DNA of 64,000 nucleotides from Gloeomargarita sp. SRBZ-1_bins_9 (lineage in GTDB: Bacteria > Cyanobacteriota > Cyanobacteriia > Gloeomargaritales > Gloeomargaritaceae), in NCBI GenBank assembly GCA_039794565.1, contig JAUQVX010000002.1, positions 1-64,000 on the forward strand, written 5' to 3'. The first letter of the stretch is position 1; the number at the start of each line of letters is the position of its first letter. The notes under the pieces are model-generated. The model did not search any database. It was not told where the DNA came from and saw only the letters and a program-made list of their open reading frames with translations. Made by a program: the position numbers and the translations under genes. Below, piece by piece: positions 13,828-62,247 of the stretch.

Positions 13828-15945
13828 TCAACCCCTATACCGCCGCCACATTTGCTGAAAGGCTTCTCCCAACTGCTGGGCAAAACGTTTACCGTTCCAC
13901 AGGGGGGAGGTATGGCGGCTCTCCAACAGGCGCTGGCGGATGTCTCGGCGCAGGTCGGCATCGGTCCCCAGGCGCACCCCCCAGGCTATGTATTCCTCCG
14001 GCGTGTGGGCAATGCCCTCGCTGATACCGCACTGGGTGAGGAAAGCGTAGCTATGGCGGGCGGCAAATTGTTGGCCCACGCGGGTCACCAGGGGTACCCC
14101 GAGCCACAGGGCTTCCAGGGTGGTGGTGGCGCCGTTATAGGGGTAGGTATCCAGCACCACATCCGCCAGGGTTTGCAAATTGGCCCGATGCACATATTCG
14201 CTATCCACGGGGGGCAAAAAGCGCAACCGTCCGGGGTCAACCCCGAGGGCCTGGGCTTGGGTCACAAACTGGTGCTTTAAGCCTGCGCTGTCGTAGATGT
14301 ATTTCACGCACAGGTAACTATTGGGTACTTCCCGCAGCACTTGTAACTGGAGGTCCACGGTGGCGGGATGGCGTTTATAGCCGCTCTGGGCCGTGTAAAA
14401 AATCACCGCATCCGGGGCGATCCCCAAATCCTCCCGGCGCCAGGTCGGCACGTCAATTTCAAACCCATCCACGGCGATATAGGTCTCCGGTAAACGCCAG
14501 ATGGTTTCTTGGTAATAGTCTTGGGCGTCCGCTGGCAACACCCAGGGGTCGGCAAGGAAGTAGTCAATGGTATCTAAGCCGCTGGCGTCCCAGCCCAACC
14601 AGGTGACTTGAATCGGCGCCGGCTTTTGGGCCAGGACCACACAGCCGCTACTCAAGGTCAAACTGTCCATATCCACCAAAATGTGGATGCCGTCGCGGGC
14701 GATTTGTTCTGCCAACTGCCTGGGGTGGTCGTGATAGACGTAGTGATCACATTGCTGTACAAACCAGGAGTGCCCCAACTCATCGGGCGGCTGGCCAATG
14801 TAGTACAGGAAAAACTCGAACTGCTCCCGGTCGTAGTGCCGGAAAAACGAGCGGGCCAACCAGCCTACCGAATGGCGGCGGAGGGTGAACGATAAAAAAC
14901 CTACCCGCAACCGGGACGGTGCAGCCTTGATGAGGGGCGTCAGCCGCCGAAACCCGCGACCGACTCGGGACGTAATGCGGTTGATCAGGGGGCGGTCTTG
15001 GGCTGGCTCATCGCGCAAATAGGGCAGCAAAAAGGGGATGTGAAACAGGTTAGCCCCCAGCAATTGGAACGCCGGTCGGAAGTCCGTCTGGGGGTCGGCT
15101 ATCTCCTGTAGCAAGCGGACATAGGATGGGGTTTGAGCAAGTACTTCTGACCAGGCGCTGCCGCCGGCATTGAGCAACTCCCGCAACCGGCAGTACAGGG
15201 CGTAGGCTTGGGCCACCGGGGAATGGTTTTGGGCAGCGGCCATCTGCCGGTTACATAGATCAAGGGCCTGGTCGTGTTGGTGGATTTCCCCATACAGATT
15301 GGCCAAGACCCCCAAAAGCTCGATGTTGTCTGGGTCCACCTCTAGCGCCAAGTTCAGCAGTTTTTCCCGCACCGGTAGCGCATTTGGCCACTGCAGGCGA
15401 TGACTGGCGGCTAACAGGGTTTGGGCGTAGGTCTGGGCCGGTAAATGGGAGCGACAGGCCAACACCAACTGCTCCACCAGGGGGTTGTATTCCACCTGGG
15501 TGAGCACTGTCATTAGGGTTTGGCGTAACCGTTGGGGGGGAAACTCCTGGGTCGTTTGCAGGGTTTGGAGCAGGGTTTCCAGGGCTGCGGTGGTCAATTG
15601 CTCCTGGGTGGCGGCGGCTTCAATCCAACGACACAGGCGTTCCGGCGTCGGGGCGACTTCCCAAGCGGCTTGGTACAGCTCAACACTCACCGCCGGTTGG
15701 CTGTCCTGATAGGGTGGCGCTTGGGTTTCTAACCATTGGGCTAGGGCTTCTAATGCCGGCGCTGAAAGGTCGGTCAAGGCGCGCAACCACCAGGTCTGGG
15801 CGGCCTCCGGGTCATCCTGCAGTAAACAGGCCAACCCCCCATAGCCCCAGGCGGTGATGTCCGTCGCTTCCTGGGCTAACACCCGCTCCGCTGCGGCCAG
15901 CAGTCCGGCATAGTCCTGTTGGTCTAGCCAGGGTTGGGGGTCCAT
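13828..15945 (-). CDS. TPR protein with GT41 (SPINDLY/O-GlcNAc transferase-like) domain
   Basis: A 705-residue protein. The N-terminal ~300 residues are helical and TPR-like; residues about 330-700 match the GT41 catalytic region (GFLSFTLRRHSVGWL, PIQVTWLGWDASGLDTIDY, FYTAQSGYKRHP, DTYPYNGATTTLEALWLGVP). GT41 enzymes transfer GlcNAc or related sugars to Ser/Thr of cytosolic proteins. Donor and target here are unknown. I chose ATG 15945 because the following sequence starts the TPR fold; it lies inside the last 22 bases of the upstream MerR-pentapeptide gene, implying coupled translation. Divergent from these two genes are a tubulin-like protein and a sugar epimerase. Confidence 0.85.
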   Translation of the reverse strand: MDPQPWLDQQDYAGLLAAAERVLAQEATDITAWGYGGLACLLQDDPEAAQTWWLRALTDLSAPALEALAQWLETQAPPYQDSQPAVSVELYQAAWEVAPTPERLCRWIEAAATQEQLTTAALETLLQTLQTTQEFPPQRLRQTLMTVLTQVEYNPLVEQLVLACRSHLPAQTYAQTLLAASHRLQWPNALPVREKLLNLALEVDPDNIELLGVLANLYGEIHQHDQALDLCNRQMAAAQNHSPVAQAYALYCRLRELLNAGGSAWSEVLAQTPSYVRLLQEIADPQTDFRPAFQLLGANLFHIPFLLPYLRDEPAQDRPLINRITSRVGRGFRRLTPLIKAAPSRLRVGFLSFTLRRHSVGWLARSFFRHYDREQFEFFLYYIGQPPDELGHSWFVQQCDHYVYHDHPRQLAEQIARDGIHILVDMDSLTLSSGCVVLAQKPAPIQVTWLGWDASGLDTIDYFLADPWVLPADAQDYYQETIWRLPETYIAVDGFEIDVPTWRREDLGIAPDAVIFYTAQSGYKRHPATVDLQLQVLREVPNSYLCVKYIYDSAGLKHQFVTQAQALGVDPGRLRFLPPVDSEYVHRANLQTLADVVLDTYPYNGATTTLEALWLGVPLVTRVGQQFAARHSYAFLTQCGISEGIAHTPEEYIAWGVRLGTDADLRRDIRQRLLESRHTSPLWNGKRFAQQLGEAFQQMWRRYRG

Positions 15946-16946
15946 CGGTTTTCCAGGGTTGGCGCATAGAGTTGTCCATTCGGTAGGGTAGCGCCCCACA
16001 GGTTGGCCGTTGCTAGGCTAGCCGGGTCCAAGTGGGCATCGGTCAAATCGGCTCCACTGAGATTCGCGCCCCACAGCAACGCCCCCGTTAAATTGGCCTC
16101 CCGCAGGTTGGCGCCGATGAGTAGAACTTCGCTCAAATTGGCCTGTTGTAAATTAGCCGCTGTCAGATTGGCTCCCCCCAGATTAGCGCCCACCAGGTTG
16201 GCCTCCTGCAAATCCGGCTCGCTCAAATCCGTGCCGATCATCACCGCGCCGATGAGTTGACTGCGGCGGAAATAGCCTCCGATGGCGTCAGCACCCGTCA
16301 AGTTTGCCCCGATCAAGCGGCTGTCTTCTAAAACGACTTCGGCCAAATTGGCCAGCATCAGTTGGGCGCGACTGAAATCCACCCCGCTGAGATTCACCCG
16401 GGCCAGGTTCACCTGCACCAGGTCCCATCCCTGGAAGTTCCGTTCCCCGGCCCAGTAGCGCTGTAGGAGCTGGTCCCGGTTGGGGGTGGCCGCGGTGGGC
16501 AAACTGGGCAGATGGGTGGGATGGGCCGCTTCCGCTAGCCATTGCTCGAGGGTCCGGCGACCATCCATGGGGGCATCCGTCTCCGGCAAGCGTCCGGTTA
16601 ACCACTCCAAGCGCTGGCTAATGGCCTGGTGGGTCGCCTGGAGCTGCTGCATCTGTTGGGTCAAAAGCTCCAAACGTTCCTGGACCAGCCGCCGAAAACT
16701 GCCGTAGGGGTTAATCCCCCGGGCCTGCAATTGCACCAGTTGTTTGATGTCCTCCAGGGTCAAGCCGAACTGCTTGCAGTGTTGGATAAAGAGCAGTTGT
16801 GCCAGGGACTCCGGCGGATAGAGCCGATAGCCGCTTTTGTTGCGCTCCGGGGGAGCCAGCAAACCTTCCCGCTCATAAAACCGAATGGTTTGGGGGGACA
16901 CACCGGCTTGACTGCTCAATTCCCCGATTAACCAACCCCGCTCCAT
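15924..16946 (-). CDS. MerR-family regulator fused to pentapeptide repeats
   Basis: About 340 residues. Residues 4-70 form a MerR winged helix (LIGELSSQAGVSPQTIRFYE, then SGYRLYPPESL). A helical dimerisation segment covers about 80-120. From about 165 to 325 the protein consists of A(D/N)LxG-type pentapeptide repeats, predicted to fold as a right-handed beta helix in place of an effector-binding domain. No metal-binding cysteine pair of the CueR/ZntR kind is evident. Starts at 16973 or 16997 are also possible. It diverges from the tubulin-like gene with a shared control region of about 100 bases, so it may regulate that promoter. Confidence 0.85.
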   Translation of the reverse strand: MERGWLIGELSSQAGVSPQTIRFYEREGLLAPPERNKSGYRLYPPESLAQLLFIQHCKQFGLTLEDIKQLVQLQARGINPYGSFRRLVQERLELLTQQMQQLQATHQAISQRLEWLTGRLPETDAPMDGRRTLEQWLAEAAHPTHLPSLPTAATPNRDQLLQRYWAGERNFQGWDLVQVNLARVNLSGVDFSRAQLMLANLAEVVLEDSRLIGANLTGADAIGGYFRRSQLIGAVMIGTDLSEPDLQEANLVGANLGGANLTAANLQQANLSEVLLIGANLREANLTGALLWGANLSGADLTDAHLDPASLATANLWGATLPNGQLYAPTLENRWTPNPG

Positions 16947-16990
16947 CGTGTCGCCCGCTGTCTTCTTCCCCATTGTATCGGTCGGCAGGA

Positions 16991-17019
16991 GGGACAAAAC
17001 CGCAGAAATTGCCTACAAT
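16991..17019 (+). promoter_or_regulatory. Putative sigma-70 promoter of the tubulin-like operon
   Basis: GGGACA (16991-16996) and TACAAT (17014-17019) are spaced by 17 bases, placing a start site near 17026, about 25 bases before the coding start. The divergent MerR gene begins nearby. The spacer is normal rather than the 19-20 bases typical of MerR-activated promoters. Confidence 0.4.
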
Positions 17020-17050: not shown

Positions 17051-20000
17051 ATGGCCGAGTACCAAGGCATGACTCCCACCATTGTGGTCGGGTTGGGGGG
17101 TACGGGCAAAGAAGTGCTCATGAAAATCCGGCGGATGATTGTGGAGACCTACGGCAGCCTCGACGCCCTCCCCATCGTGTCCTTCCTGCACATTGATACG
17201 GAACAAAACGCCAAGGTTTCCGAACCCCAGGTGGTGCTCAAGCAGGACATTTCCCTGCGTCCGGTCGAGCAAGTTTGGGCCAAGGTGGACAACGCCAAAG
17301 CCATCCTCAATCGCATTGCTGACTACGACTACCTCATGGAATGGTTTCCCCCTGAGCTGGCGGGCACGGACGCGATTCTGGCAGGGGCAGGCCAAATCCG
17401 GGCGTTGGGGAAATTTGCCTTCACCGTCAACTACCAAACCATCAAGAATGCTTTTGCCCATGCCCGCGCCCGCATCCTGGGCCACGAAAAATTCATGCTG
17501 GACCGCTGGGGGGTGCAACTGGACAAGGGCATTAACATCTTCATCGTCTGTTCTTTAAGCGGCGGCACGGGTTCGGGGATGGTGCTGGATATGGCCTATA
17601 ACGTGCGGGATTGGGTGCCCCCTTCGGACCTGCCCCAAACCTGTGCCTTTTTGGTGCTGCCGGGGGCCTTTTCCGGCCTGGGAGACCGGGTGATTGCCAA
17701 TGCCTACGCCGCCTTGATGGAGCTGGACCACTACTCCCGTCCCCACACCCGTTTTGAAACCCAATACAGCAACAACATGGCCGACCGCATCAGCAGCCAA
17801 AACGCCCAGGACACCCCCTTTAGCTTCTGCTACCTGGTGGGCAACAGCAACGACAAGGTAACCCTGCCGACCCTGGAGGCGGTTTTGGAGATGGTGGCCC
17901 AAAACATTTTCCTGGACTTTTCCTCGGGCTTTAGCCAGTACAAGAAACTGGTGCGGGACAACATTCGTAAGCACTGGGCCAGCCCGGACCCCTTGGGCTT
18001 TCCCCAAAGCTATATCACCTTCGGTCTGTCTAGCATTCAATTTCCGGTGCAGCGGGTGCTGAATGCCTGTGCCTCCCGGTTAGCAGTAGCCCTGGTGGAC
18101 TGGTGGGCCAATCCCACGCCCGCTCCTACAGCCATGCGGGATGTGATCAAAACCGAAATCCTGCCCCATCTGGGCCTGGCGGAGTCGGAAAACAACCACC
18201 AATTACTTGACAGCCTCAGCGTGGGCGATAACATGAAACCCTACAGCAAAGAAGTGGCCGATTGGGTGGCCAGCCTGCGCAAGCGCCGCAATGACCTTAA
18301 TATTCCGTTTGAAAATCTCCGGCGGTTTGTTTCGGTTGAGGAGGAAAAATACCGGGTGCATTTTAACGATGCCGATAGCGACCCGCGGCGCTGGAGCGAT
18401 TATTTCCAAAAGATGTGGGATAACCTGAATCGGCTGATTCCCCAAAAGACCCGGGAACTGCGGGAAACGGTGGCGCAAATGGTGGAGGACCGCTTCCGGG
18501 GACCCAAATGGACGCGCCAGTTTTTGGAAGTGTTGCTGGAGGTGTGGCTGGAGTTTCGCACCACCTTTGACCAATCTCGGCAAAAGGAGTGGCTGCCCCG
18601 GGAACGCTCCGCTAGTCAAGCGCTGCAAATTTTGCTCAAACAGATTGACAACCACGCCCGGCAGATGCTGTTGGTGAACAAAAAAAAGGTGATTGACGAT
18701 GATTTCAACGCCATCATGCAGGCGCTGGAGTCCATTTATGTTGCCAAGGTGGAAGTCAAAGCCCGGGCGCTGGCGATTCCCTTGCTGGATGCCCTGCGGG
18801 AGGAAACCCAACGCCTGCTCAACGACCTGAATAACTTTGATAGAAACCTGGAGCAGTTGCGGCGGCAGTTGGCGGAACGGGAGCAGGTCTATACGCGGGA
18901 GACGGGGACACTCACAGTCAACGGCATTTTGCTCTACGACCCCAAGGACATTGACCAGATTTACAGCAAAACTTTGGCCAACCGGGGCGAGAGTGTGTTT
19001 CAGGGCATGAGCCAGGACATTTGGGGTGGCATGGGCTGTCGCCTGTTTGACCTGCACACCTTTGAGCACCTGCGGCTACAGGATTTGTACCAACGTATCA
19101 TCAACCGGGCGATTGATGAATTCAGCAACAGCGAGCAGCTCAAGGTTTCAGTGGCGGAAAAATTCATTGCCCAATATCCCACCGTCGAGCAGCAGGAGGC
19201 GCAACTCAAAAGCACGTTTGAAAAAAGCGAGGCTTTCTTGCGGTTCAGTCAGGAGCAGGCGCGCTTGGGTTGGGATGACCGCCTGGAAAAACGCCAGACC
19301 CTGGTGGGGATTCAAGGGGGTAATAAACCCACCGATCCAGCAGTGGCGGCTCTCCTGCCCTTGCTGCGCAAAGCCACCACGCTAACTGATAAGGACATTC
19401 GCCCCTATAACGACCCCCACCACATCTATTTCGTGCGGGAGATCGGGGCGTTTCCCCTGCGGTTGATTGAGGGGATGGAGCGGATGCGGACGATTTATCG
19501 CACGGTGCTCCAAAATGACCGCAACCCGTTGCACACCCACCACAACCGCCAGCAGTTTGCCGACATCATGCCGGCGTCGAGTGAAGAAATCCAGGTGCGG
19601 GAAAACATCATCCTGGGGCGGGTGTTTGAGCTGCTCACCGAGGCGGAAAACAAGCTGACGGGTTACCCGGAAATCAAGCTGCATTACCAGGACAGTGCAA
19701 CGGGGTTGGCCCGCAGTTTGACCTTGGGGAGCACCTGGGAAGAGGCGGAGCAGTATTTGTTGGCGGACCAAAACCGTAAAGCCAGGGAGTTGCTCAACGA
19801 CGGCATCCAAAAAATTCTCAAGCAGGCGACGACGAAGGAGGCCAAGCGCGCCCTGTACGAGCAGTTGATGGGCTATTTGCAGACGCTAGAGCGAACCCTA
19901 CCGGCGGGCCGCGACCATCCGACCTACCAGCGCGCGGAGGAGGCCATCAGCAATTGCGTACGGACTTACCGCTTGTTTGAGCCGGGGACGACCCCCCCAC

Positions 20001-20395
20001 CCAAGGTGGCTCAACCGTCAGCGCCGGCGGCAGTCCCCGCAGGGGTGGTCGATAGCGACATAGAAAAGTTCACCAAGTTGGTGGAGGCTTGTTTCAAGGG
20101 GGGGAAAACGCCGTCGGACAAAGAGCTGGCCATTCTCGATAAGTTGCGGCAGAAGTACGGGGTGAGCAAGGAGAAGGCCCAGGAGATCATTGCCCGTTAC
20201 CAGCCCAAAAAAAATGATCCGGAATTGGCGGCCTATGAGTACGGGTTGATGTTCCGGGCGTTTCTCGATAACGATGGGGAAATTGGCTTGGATGAACGCG
20301 CCCAGCTGCTGGAGTTGCAGGAGGAGTTGGGGCTGACGGATGCCCAGGTGGCCATTATCGAGGCCAATATCCGCGACGAGTTGGGCCTGGGTTGA
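17051..20395 (+). CDS. Large tubulin-superfamily (Tubulin_2/FtsZ-like) protein
   Basis: A 1114-residue protein. The N-terminal GTPase-like domain begins with a Rossmann strand and P-loop-like turn (VVGLGGTGK, 12-20) and carries the tubulin signature as LSGGTGSG (169-176). These are hallmarks of the tubulin/FtsZ superfamily, and the length and layout fit Pfam Tubulin_2, whose members are of unknown or membrane-remodelling function. A long, mostly helical middle region (about 400-960) contains charged coiled-coil stretches. A Pro/Ala-rich linker (about 975-1000) leads to two similar helical modules at the C-terminus (DKLRQKYGVSKEKAQEII and LQEELGLTDAQVAIIEANI). ATG 17051 has GGGGAAA seven bases upstream. 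The stop shares a base with the epimerase start. Confidence 0.8.
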   Translation: MAEYQGMTPTIVVGLGGTGKEVLMKIRRMIVETYGSLDALPIVSFLHIDTEQNAKVSEPQVVLKQDISLRPVEQVWAKVDNAKAILNRIADYDYLMEWFPPELAGTDAILAGAGQIRALGKFAFTVNYQTIKNAFAHARARILGHEKFMLDRWGVQLDKGINIFIVCSLSGGTGSGMVLDMAYNVRDWVPPSDLPQTCAFLVLPGAFSGLGDRVIANAYAALMELDHYSRPHTRFETQYSNNMADRISSQNAQDTPFSFCYLVGNSNDKVTLPTLEAVLEMVAQNIFLDFSSGFSQYKKLVRDNIRKHWASPDPLGFPQSYITFGLSSIQFPVQRVLNACASRLAVALVDWWANPTPAPTAMRDVIKTEILPHLGLAESENNHQLLDSLSVGDNMKPYSKEVADWVASLRKRRNDLNIPFENLRRFVSVEEEKYRVHFNDADSDPRRWSDYFQKMWDNLNRLIPQKTRELRETVAQMVEDRFRGPKWTRQFLEVLLEVWLEFRTTFDQSRQKEWLPRERSASQALQILLKQIDNHARQMLLVNKKKVIDDDFNAIMQALESIYVAKVEVKARALAIPLLDALREETQRLLNDLNNFDRNLEQLRRQLAEREQVYTRETGTLTVNGILLYDPKDIDQIYSKTLANRGESVFQGMSQDIWGGMGCRLFDLHTFEHLRLQDLYQRIINRAIDEFSNSEQLKVSVAEKFIAQYPTVEQQEAQLKSTFEKSEAFLRFSQEQARLGWDDRLEKRQTLVGIQGGNKPTDPAVAALLPLLRKATTLTDKDIRPYNDPHHIYFVREIGAFPLRLIEGMERMRTIYRTVLQNDRNPLHTHHNRQQFADIMPASSEEIQVRENIILGRVFELLTEAENKLTGYPEIKLHYQDSATGLARSLTLGSTWEEAEQYLLADQNRKARELLNDGIQKILKQATTKEAKRALYEQLMGYLQTLERTLPAGRDHPTYQRAEEAISNCVRTYRLFEPGTTPPPKVAQPSAPAAVPAGVVDSDIEKFTKLVEACFKGGKTPSDKELAILDKLRQKYGVSKEKAQEIIARYQPKKNDPELAAYEYGLMFRAFLDNDGEIGLDERAQLLELQEELGLTDAQVAIIEANIRDELGLG

Positions 20396-21321
20396 TGCGC
20401 ATTTTGCTGACTGGGGGGGCGGGGTTTATTGGCTCGGCGGTGCAGGAGGTGTATTGGCAGGCGGGACACGAGGTCGCTATCTTGGATGATTTCAGCACGG
20501 GCGACCCAGCCTATGTCCATCCCCACAGTCGGGTCTATCAGGCTGATGTGCGGGATGCGGCTGCGGTTGCGCGGATCGTCCGGGAATGGCAGCCCCAGGT
20601 GATTAACCACCACGCTGCCCAGATTGATGTGCGGTTTTCGCTGGACCAACCGGTAGCGGATGCCCAAACCAATATCTTGGGTTCGCTGCATCTGCTGGAG
20701 GCGGCCCGGCAGGGGGGGGTGCAGCAGTTTATCTTTGCGTCGTCGGGGGGGGCCTGCTATGGGAATTTGCAGCAGATTCCGGCGCCGGAAACCCACCCTT
20801 TGCAACCCCTGTCGCCCTATGGCATCGCTAAGGTGACGGTGGAGTATTATTTGCAGGTCTATTACCAAACCTATGGGTTGTCCTATGTGGCTTTGCGCTA
20901 TGCCAATGTGTATGGCCCCCGCCAGGGACGCAAAGGGGAAGCAGGGGTGATCGCGGCTTTTATCCAGGCGCTGTTGACGGGGCAAACGCCGGTGATTTAC
21001 GGCTCAGGGGAGCAAACCCGGGATTTTGTCTATGTGCAGGATGTGGCGGAGTTGAATTTGCGGGTGCTGGGTTATCGGGAACCCCTGATACTCAACGTGG
21101 GCACGGGCCGGGAAACGTCGGTGTTGGAACTCTATGGCCTGATTCAGCAGTTGGTGGGCACCAAGGTGACGCCCCGGTTTCTGCCGGCGCGGGTAGGGGA
21201 GGTGAGCCGCAGTGCCCTGGATGGGGGTCTGGCTTGTCGGTTGCTGGGGTGGACGCCCCAAACGCCTTTGGCTCAGGGGTTGCAGGCCACGCTCGACTGG
21301 TATCGCCAGGTGCTACAGTAA
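20395..21321 (+). CDS. NAD-dependent epimerase/dehydratase, GalE-like
   Basis: A 308-residue extended short-chain dehydrogenase. NAD-binding GGAGFIG (residues 8-14), DDFSTG, the SSGG(A)CYG serine region and the catalytic YGIAK (YxxxK) are present. This is the UDP-glucose/UDP-GlcNAc 4-epimerase branch, but substrate cannot be assigned from motifs. Its ATG overlaps the tubulin-like stop as TGATG, an arrangement normally seen between functionally related products. A GT41 glycosyltransferase lies across the divergent promoter, so a role in making its sugar donor is conceivable. Confidence 0.87.
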   Translation: MRILLTGGAGFIGSAVQEVYWQAGHEVAILDDFSTGDPAYVHPHSRVYQADVRDAAAVARIVREWQPQVINHHAAQIDVRFSLDQPVADAQTNILGSLHLLEAARQGGVQQFIFASSGGACYGNLQQIPAPETHPLQPLSPYGIAKVTVEYYLQVYYQTYGLSYVALRYANVYGPRQGRKGEAGVIAAFIQALLTGQTPVIYGSGEQTRDFVYVQDVAELNLRVLGYREPLILNVGTGRETSVLELYGLIQQLVGTKVTPRFLPARVGEVSRSALDGGLACRLLGWTPQTPLAQGLQATLDWYRQVLQ

Positions 21322-60443: not shown

Positions 60444-60976
60444 TGCCAGAAGCCGGTCGCCCCAGTTGGGATGAATACTTCCTGATGCTGGCGAAGTTGG
60501 CAGCGACCCGCTCGACGTGCTTGGCCTTGCCGGTGGGGGCGGTGATCGTCAAACAACGGCAGGTCTTGGCGACGGGTTACAACGGCCCCCCCTCCGGTTC
60601 CCCCCACTGCACCGCCCAGGGCTTCTGTTACCCCGGCCTACCCCGCTGTGACCTGAGCCGTTCCTTGCCCTCCCGCGCCATCCACGCCGAAGCCAATGCC
60701 ATTGCCCAGGCGGCCCGCTACGGCATTTCCACCGAAGGCGCCACCATCTACGTGACCCTAGCCCCCTGTTTGGCTTGTTTGAAGCTCATCATTTCGGCGG
60801 GGATTCGGGAAGTGGTCTATGAAACCCCTTTCCACGGGGATAATACTCTGCAGGAGAGCTTCATCCGCGAGGGTTTGCTTCGCATGCGCCAAGTTCAGAT
60901 CGACCCGGCCGTGACCGCCAGGGCCATCCGGTTTCTCCAGGGGGAGACCTCCCTCCTGTTGCCCCAGGAAGCCTAG
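60443..60976 (+). CDS. Deoxycytidylate (dCMP) deaminase, ComEB type
   Basis: A 177-residue zinc deaminase converting dCMP to dUMP for dTTP synthesis. Zinc site: HAEANAIAQ (His plus proton-shuttling Glu) and PCLACLKLI (two Cys). GAVIVKQRQVLATGYNGPPSG is the substrate-side strand block. An inserted Cys-containing loop (CTAQGFCYPGLPRCD) is typical of dCMP deaminases and may bind a second zinc. The stop interlocks with pilT by four bases. Confidence 0.92.
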   Translation: MPEAGRPSWDEYFLMLAKLAATRSTCLALPVGAVIVKQRQVLATGYNGPPSGSPHCTAQGFCYPGLPRCDLSRSLPSRAIHAEANAIAQAARYGISTEGATIYVTLAPCLACLKLIISAGIREVVYETPFHGDNTLQESFIREGLLRMRQVQIDPAVTARAIRFLQGETSLLLPQEA

Positions 60977-62139
60977 AATCCCGCTTTCCCCCGCAGGAGC
61001 ATGGCCATCTCGTTGGGTTTGGGGGAGGCCTCTAGAGCCGTCTCTTCCGTGATCCGTCCCTCCTCGTAGAGGCGCAGCAGGCACTGGTTCATGGTGCACA
61101 TGCCATCCAGGGTGGAGCGGGGAATCAGGTTCTCAATCTCGTCCACTTCGTCCCGGCGGATGTAGTCCTTGATGGCGTCGGTATTGATCATAATTTCGTG
61201 GATGGCCGTGCGTTTGCCATCGGTGGTGCGCACCAGGGCCTGGGCAATCACCGCCACCAGGGTTTCCGCAATCTGCACCCGCATAGGGGGTTGCTCCGAC
61301 GGCTCGTACAGGTTGAGGATCCGGTCAATGGTTTTCACCGCACTATTGGTGTGCAGAGTGCCGAACACCAGGTGACCGGTTTGGGCAGCCTTCAGGGCAA
61401 TGTTGACCGTCTCCCGGTCCCGCATCTCCCCAATCAGAATGATGTCCGGGTCCTCCCGCAAGGAGGCTTTTAGGGCGTTTTCAAACTTCAAGGTGTGAAT
61501 GCCCACCTCCCGCTGGCGGATCAGGGATTTCTTGCTGAAATGCACAAATTCCACCGGGTCCTCAATGGAGATGATGTGTTTGGGAAGGGTCTGGTTAATG
61601 TAGTCCACCATGGCTGCCAAAGTGGTGGATTTCCCGGAACCCGTCGGTCCGGTCACCAGAATCAATCCCTTCTGGTAATGGCACAGGTCCTTGAAAACCG
61701 AGGGCAATCCCAACTGATCAATGGTGAGAATTTTCAAGGGAATGAGACGCAACACCAAAGCCGGCCCCCGCAGGGAAATAAACAGGTTAATGCGCACGCG
61801 AATCTCGTCGCGGAAGGTGCAGGCGCCGTCAAATTCCATGTTTTTGCGAAAGAGTTCGATCTGCTCCGGCTGCAACATTTCCGCAAGCCAGCGGTCGTAG
61901 GTTTCCAGGTCGGTCACCGGTAGGTCTTCCACGATTTCCATAATTCCCCGCTTGCGGAATCGGGGCCGCTCGTTGACGCCGATGTGGATGTCCGAGGCCC
62001 CCTCTGCTTGGGCGCGAAATACCAATTCCTCCATTGAGGGCACCCGGGGTCCGCTGGCTTTGGCTACCGGTGGCGCAACGGTTCGTGGGGGTGGCACCGG
62101 GGGAACGGGGGGCGGTGGTGGAATCGGCGTCGTGCTCAT
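60973..62139 (-). CDS. pilT: Type IV pilus retraction ATPase PilT
   Basis: 388 residues from ATG 62139 (AGGTG upstream); a GTG three codons earlier is possible. An unusual Pro-rich N-terminal tail (about residues 6-25) precedes the PAS-like domain and the secretion-ATPase core: Walker A GPTGSGKST, Asp box, Walker B ILIGEMRDRET, His box FGTLHTNSA and the PilT-specific AIHEIMI. It disassembles pili for twitching and phototaxis. No pilB or pilC is adjacent in the window. Confidence 0.95.
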   Translation of the reverse strand: MSTTPIPPPPPVPPVPPPRTVAPPVAKASGPRVPSMEELVFRAQAEGASDIHIGVNERPRFRKRGIMEIVEDLPVTDLETYDRWLAEMLQPEQIELFRKNMEFDGACTFRDEIRVRINLFISLRGPALVLRLIPLKILTIDQLGLPSVFKDLCHYQKGLILVTGPTGSGKSTTLAAMVDYINQTLPKHIISIEDPVEFVHFSKKSLIRQREVGIHTLKFENALKASLREDPDIILIGEMRDRETVNIALKAAQTGHLVFGTLHTNSAVKTIDRILNLYEPSEQPPMRVQIAETLVAVIAQALVRTTDGKRTAIHEIMINTDAIKDYIRRDEVDEIENLIPRSTLDGMCTMNQCLLRLYEEGRITEETALEASPKPNEMAMLLRGKAGF

Positions 62140-62247
62140 AACGTGCACCTGGACAGGGGTCTTGTTTACTGTACCCAGATCGCTCCTCGATTTTAGCCTG
62201 CCCTGGGGAAATCGCCTAATATTAAAGGCAGCGGCGCAGTATAAACC

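Follow-up and report, generated by a model that had tools for sequence, protein, structure and literature searches.

A cyanobacterial FtsZl1/Tubulin_2 protein whose subfamily is inherited with a zinc-ribbon membrane protein resembling a surface receptor

A known family with a receptor-like partner

The FtsZl1 family of large tubulin-like proteins, which corresponds to Pfam family PF13809 (Tubulin_2), is widespread in prokaryotes and has been known since 2010, yet almost no function has been assigned to it. In the original description by Makarova and Koonin (PMC2875224), these proteins comprise an FtsZ-like domain, a coiled coil, and a helical C-terminal part (about 1,050 amino acids in all), the cyanobacterial members are described as a clade, a role in membrane remodeling is proposed, and operons shared with vWA, GTPase, and OmpA genes are reported as frequent, not universal. 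A reviewer of that article suggested transport and/or signaling and cited single periplasmic-binding protein (PBP) and PilA neighbors, the PBP neighbors being those of Polaromonas and Arthrospira.

Here, we analyzed a member of this family encoded at positions 17051..20395 (+ strand) of a window, that is, the whole stretch of 64,000 nucleotides under study, from Gloeomargarita sp. SRBZ-1_bins_9; the coordinates and the length of 1,114 residues are those given by the original prediction. Like FtsZl1 proteins, it has an N-terminal tubulin-like domain with glycine loops, followed by long helices and a mostly helical C-terminal part in the secondary structure of its AlphaFold2 (AF2) model, and it coexists with a conventional FtsZ in the same genome. 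Because cyanobacterial FtsZl1 members were described in 2010, the protein alone is not new: it is a member of FtsZl1/Tubulin_2 rather than a new kind of protein, and the apparent novelty is its partnership. Unlike the FtsZl1 pattern, the partner gene of the window subfamily encodes a zinc ribbon, a transmembrane (TM) segment, and a PBP-type domain and is not a vWA, GTPase, kinase, or OmpA gene; no constant vWA, GTPase, or OmpA neighbor of the tubulin-like gene was found in the window or in its orthologs. A second trait of the window subfamily, a helical tail on a Pro-rich linker, finds no mention in the parts of PMC2875224 consulted. CetZ, FtsZ, TubZ, and tubulin share their fold with the window protein, but with identities of only 11 to 16% in structural alignments, and the window protein, which lacks FtsZ_C, has about three times their size. 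Also related is an FtsZl1 protein of the Thermosynechococcus type (locus L043, genome G089), which has a Tubulin_2 domain and a coiled coil, is also 1,114 amino acids long, and is ∼32% identical overall, but which carries a SHOCT tail and lies directly downstream of a REC/CheW/MCP/CheA cluster.

The gene, recognized from the open reading frame list and Pfam, is present in one copy in the window genome (2.22 Mb, 21 contigs) according to a search of that genome. Its start, ATG at 17051, is common to the orthologs, whose N termini read MADY, MSEY, or MAEY, and it is preceded by a weak promoter-like site (GGGACA-17-TACAAT, 16991..17019, + strand, 9/12 matches), of a kind also expected by chance. 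Relatives found across cyanobacteria, mostly of full length, are ∼61 to 91% identical, and the nearest named one (91%) is that of Gloeomargarita sp. SKYG116. Downstream, the ATG of an NAD-dependent epimerase gene (20395..21321, + strand) overlaps the stop codon of the tubulin-like gene (TGATG), and an epimerase gene is the downstream neighbor in all five Gloeomargaritales loci read; because of this overlap and of the conserved neighborhood in Gloeomargaritales, the two genes are probably cotranscribed as a single message. On the other side, a divergent gene about 50 bp away (15924-16997, − strand) encodes a MerR-family helix-turn-helix domain fused to pentapeptide repeats, a neighbor also kept in loci L034, L054, and L063; beyond it lies a gene for a TPR protein with a glycosyltransferase family 41 (O-GlcNAc transferase-like) domain (13828-15999, − strand).

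Predicted tubulin fold, helical arm, and possibly exchangeable C terminus

The profile search proposed in the original prediction gave a clear match: residues 11 to 349 (17081..18097, + strand) belong to PF13809 with 322.8 bits (E value of 3.9e-96; cutoff of 27). Within this domain, the two glycine-rich motifs lie where they had been predicted. GLGGTGK (residues 14 to 20; 17090..17110, + strand) is a T1-like loop in which G14, G16, G17, and G19 are invariant among 33 aligned family members, and SGGTGSG (residues 170 to 176; 17558..17578, + strand) is the T4 glycine-rich GTP-binding signature, invariant from G171 to G176 in the same alignment and in agreement with the family pattern (G/S)GGTG(S/T)G. 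The AF2 model, built on the 33-sequence alignment (mean pLDDT of 84.3, pTM of 0.67), contains a Rossmann-like core and places a tubulin fold around SGGTGSG. The 50 PDB matches listed by Foldseek were all to CetZ, FtsZ, TubZ, or tubulin and all had a probability of 1.00, the best among those listed being CetZ2 (4b45, E value of 2e-4). The outcome named beforehand as refuting, the lack of a tubulin-like Rossmann fold around SGGTGSG, did not occur, because the fold matches listed all belong to the tubulin superfamily.

Other signatures of the superfamily are less evident in the protein. PF00091 stays below its cutoff (14.8 bits versus 33), neither FtsZ_C nor Tubulin_C was found with Pfam, no NCBIfam model matches, and no solved relative was detected by sequence. 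The NxDxxD motif of the catalytic T7 loop is not seen; the nearly invariant D313, which follows the helix at residues 294 to 307, is a candidate only for a T7-type position. Taken with the model, these data support a predicted GTPase-type fold of the tubulin superfamily that is distinct from division FtsZ, as first claimed on sequence. Division FtsZ itself is ruled out, given the missing FtsZ_C and the separate, ordinary ftsZ in the genome, where it is split over the ends of two contigs (C11 and C4). A plasmid-borne origin was also rejected, the plasmid relatives being only remote (∼30% at best), as was a phage tubulin, since a viral library gave only weak FtsZ/tubulin-like matches.

The long helical region noted earlier is present in the AF2 model, where DSSP assigns helices at residues 450 to 479, 484 to 537, 544 to 619, and 631 to 661 within a coiled-coil-like middle (residues 356 to 735; 18116..19255, + strand). 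It is followed by a region delimited from the family alignment and AF2 models (residues 736 to 975; 19256..19975, + strand), in which an α/β structure returns at residues 748 to 893 before giving way to helices, and in which E797, F801, Y816, D838, and P841 are invariant in the 33-member alignment. Residues 736 to 840 are modeled confidently in the full-length protein but not when folded without the N-terminal part, and this loss of confidence suggests that they pack on the N-terminal core. Such packing would make the helical middle an arm inserted in a split tubulin fold.

The C terminus consists of a Pro-rich linker (residues 976 to 1001; 19976..20053, + strand), which is predicted to be disordered at residues 979 to 1000 (pLDDT mostly below 50), and a tail (residues 1002 to 1114; 20054..20392, + strand) with six helices at residues 1002 to 1110 in the AF2 model. 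This tail, seen in the window subfamily only, is conserved among 22 orthologs; the linker that precedes it varies greatly in length. The two helix pairs on a Pro-rich linker that had been described from the sequence are therefore present and conserved, but their mutual similarity is weak, and the term "tandem modules" overstates it: compared with each other, the pairs give a profile-profile probability of 11% (P of 0.0026), and their likeness falls below the 5% level against shuffles in a minority of single sequences, the window protein not being among them. This gives weak support at most to a true tandem duplication. The tail weakly resembles TerB (PF05099; 18.1 bits at best among the orthologs, cutoff of 24.4) and, equally weakly, DUF533; no PDB fold match was obtained for the C-terminal part, and no TM segment is predicted in the tubulin-like protein. 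Sister subfamilies carry GYF_2, a zinc ribbon, or SHOCT at the same end, so that, judged from these sequences, the C terminus of the family looks like an exchangeable adaptor slot.

A constant membrane partner and the sister subfamilies

In 15 of the 16 window-group loci with complete downstream DNA outside Gloeomargaritales, a gene downstream of the tubulin-like gene, usually the next one, encodes a protein in which an N-terminal zinc ribbon (CPKCGxxxN...CEICG) is combined with one TM segment and a periplasmic-binding-type domain; at the sixteenth locus (L075), the anchor protein is encoded elsewhere in the genome. The zinc-ribbon/TM part of this partner is constant and its outer domain swaps, being PstS-like, LivJ-like (Peripla_BP_6), or NMT1 with OmpA. 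By its domain composition, the partner looks like a membrane protein of the surface-receptor type. Nodosilinea nodulosa PCC 7104 is an example of a culturable strain with both genes. In Gloeomargaritales, where the epimerase gene takes the downstream position instead, the partner is unlinked: the window genome encodes a 407-amino-acid PstS-like copy on another contig (C4; L090:4883-6106, − strand). Beside this intact copy lies a decayed duplicate (L090:6103-6873), and SKYG116 has two neighboring partner copies. The zinc-ribbon/TM anchor also occurs fused to WD40 repeats, unlinked to the tubulin-like gene, on contig C4 of the window genome (L089:4917-6038) and in a genome of the same genus (G085; L092:6644-7801). 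No match to the partner was found in a Gloeomargaritales-like metagenome-assembled genome (L063), which is possibly incomplete.

The window subfamily is inherited with this protein: at the thresholds used, the tubulin subfamily and the zinc-ribbon/TM family occur in the same 4 of 386 cyanobacterial genomes. The chance of such an exact overlap is ∼1e-9 by genome and ∼1e-4 by genus (2/142), the latter being the fairer figure; the sample holds two independent lineages only. The zinc-ribbon search model was built from linked copies, so its recovery of the unlinked Gloeomargarita copies provides independent support for the partnership. This receptor-like partnership appears to be new, no description of it having been found in the literature searched, which included few subscription papers.

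A quick tree, in which long branches were flagged, separates the cyanobacterial proteins into three groups, with an SH-aLRT support of 99 for the window group; overall identity is ∼30% for the second group and ∼24% for the third. Upstream of members of the second group lie either genes for a small membrane protein and a TM-anchored Peripla_BP_6 protein or a chemotaxis cluster. In two Thermosynechococcus-type genomes (L042 and L043), a REC/CheY/CheW/MCP/CheA cluster lies directly upstream of the Tubulin_2 gene and a type IV pilin-like gene lies downstream. The membrane protein of the second group was not found in three genomes, including that of the window, by a search run without a positive control. 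In most members of the third group, the gene is embedded among genes for vWA-TM, ZorA-like (PADLOC E value of 6e-14), and ZorB-like (E value of 2e-11) proteins, and OmpA/ExbD-like proteins occur besides vWA at sister loci. Five such loci (L035, from G085, and L037, L045, L047, and L048) combine a sister Tubulin_2 gene with vWA-TM and ZorA-like/ZorB-like (MotA/MotB-type) genes, which places a possible ion-driven motor next to the tubulin-like protein. The window genome does not have the ZorA-like gene of this cluster, but one relative of the genus carries it.

Possible roles and meaning for the family

The only phenotype that we found for a cyanobacterial Tubulin_2 protein is that of sll0445 in Synechocystis, whose mutants are impaired in phototaxis and altered in photosystem II electron transport and whose product associates with pilus assembly proteins (PMC9880817). 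Published work also assigns the gene to a predicted CRP-regulated unit and reports deregulation of its product in a comFB mutant. Sll0445 and the window protein are both cyanobacterial Tubulin_2 proteins, but sll0445 sits in an operon with sll0446-sll0447, and its gene neighbors place it probably in another subfamily. Two PilT-family genes exceed the cutoff in the window genome; one of them, for a PilT-family ATPase (453 bits), lies within the window (60973-62148, − strand).

We tentatively favor a role as a cytoplasmic GTP-binding FtsZl1 scaffold, perhaps one that assembles, coupled to receptor-like proteins of the inner membrane, with an output in taxis/motility or surface behavior; this is plausible, if somewhat short of probable. 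The zinc ribbon of the partner would face the cytoplasm and bind the tubulin-like protein, its outer domain would sense a ligand, and ligand binding would alter the assembly or GTP state of the tubulin-like protein, and type IV pilus taxis/motility or surface behavior would be controlled in this way. Given the sister-subfamily context, Sll0445, and the PilT genes, pilus-based taxis is probably the target of such a scaffold, by analogy. The most specific version, in which swappable periplasmic solute-binding domains control, via the cytoplasmic zinc ribbon, the assembly of a giant tubulin-like scaffold feeding type IV pilus taxis, is doubtful as a whole.

The original prediction of a cytoskeletal or membrane-remodeling GTPase matches the 2010 proposal only, and the receptor-like partner, the chemotaxis cluster, and the phototaxis mutant favor the receptor-coupled scaffold. 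According to Makarova and Koonin, FtsZl1 would assemble on the inner membrane and, together with vWA, GTPase, and OmpA partners, shape membrane or vesicles. The family-level context in PMC2875224 speaks for this, as do vWA and OmpA/ExbD-like proteins at sister loci and OmpA on some window-group partners; however, neither a vWA nor a P-loop GTPase gene is a constant neighbor in the window subfamily, its constant partner is receptor-like, and the ZorA-like gene of the sister cluster is missing from the window genome, which makes membrane remodeling unlikely here. A filament for cell shape or division that works independently of receptors would suit the tubulin/CetZ-like fold, but we regard it as improbable for a subfamily of such patchy distribution (4/386 cyanobacterial genomes) that lacks an FtsZ_C domain and coexists with a separate ftsZ.

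The idea of the 2010 reviewer, that the protein organizes or gates solute-binding proteins and ABC-type uptake, draws on the PstS-, LivJ-, and NMT1-like domains of the partner and on the PBP neighbors cited from Polaromonas and Arthrospira in PMC2875224. Yet, instead of being free, the PBP domains follow a zinc ribbon and a TM segment that anchor them, no permease or ATPase gene is a constant neighbor at the window-group loci, and WD40 repeats replace the PBP domain in one related Gloeomargarita protein, so that we consider a transport role quite unlikely. Tubulins do occur in GTPase-centered conflict systems (PMC7159879), and ZorA/ZorB-like proteins are part of the sister cluster; nonetheless, neither the tubulin-like protein nor its zinc-ribbon-TM-PBP partner has a PADLOC match and no obvious effector gene lies near the tubulin-like gene, which leaves a part in immunity or conflict very improbable.

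The receptor-coupled reading, in which the protein may act inside the cell as the scaffold of a sensing device and not in cell division, bears on a family that has long been without a clear role. The Thermosynechococcus-type context and the published phototaxis mutant tie this family to cyanobacterial taxis, and a constant partner that can be tested physically and whose outer domains are interchangeable offers a handle on the subfamily: on the part that binds, on the ligand, and on a tubulin fold gated across a membrane.
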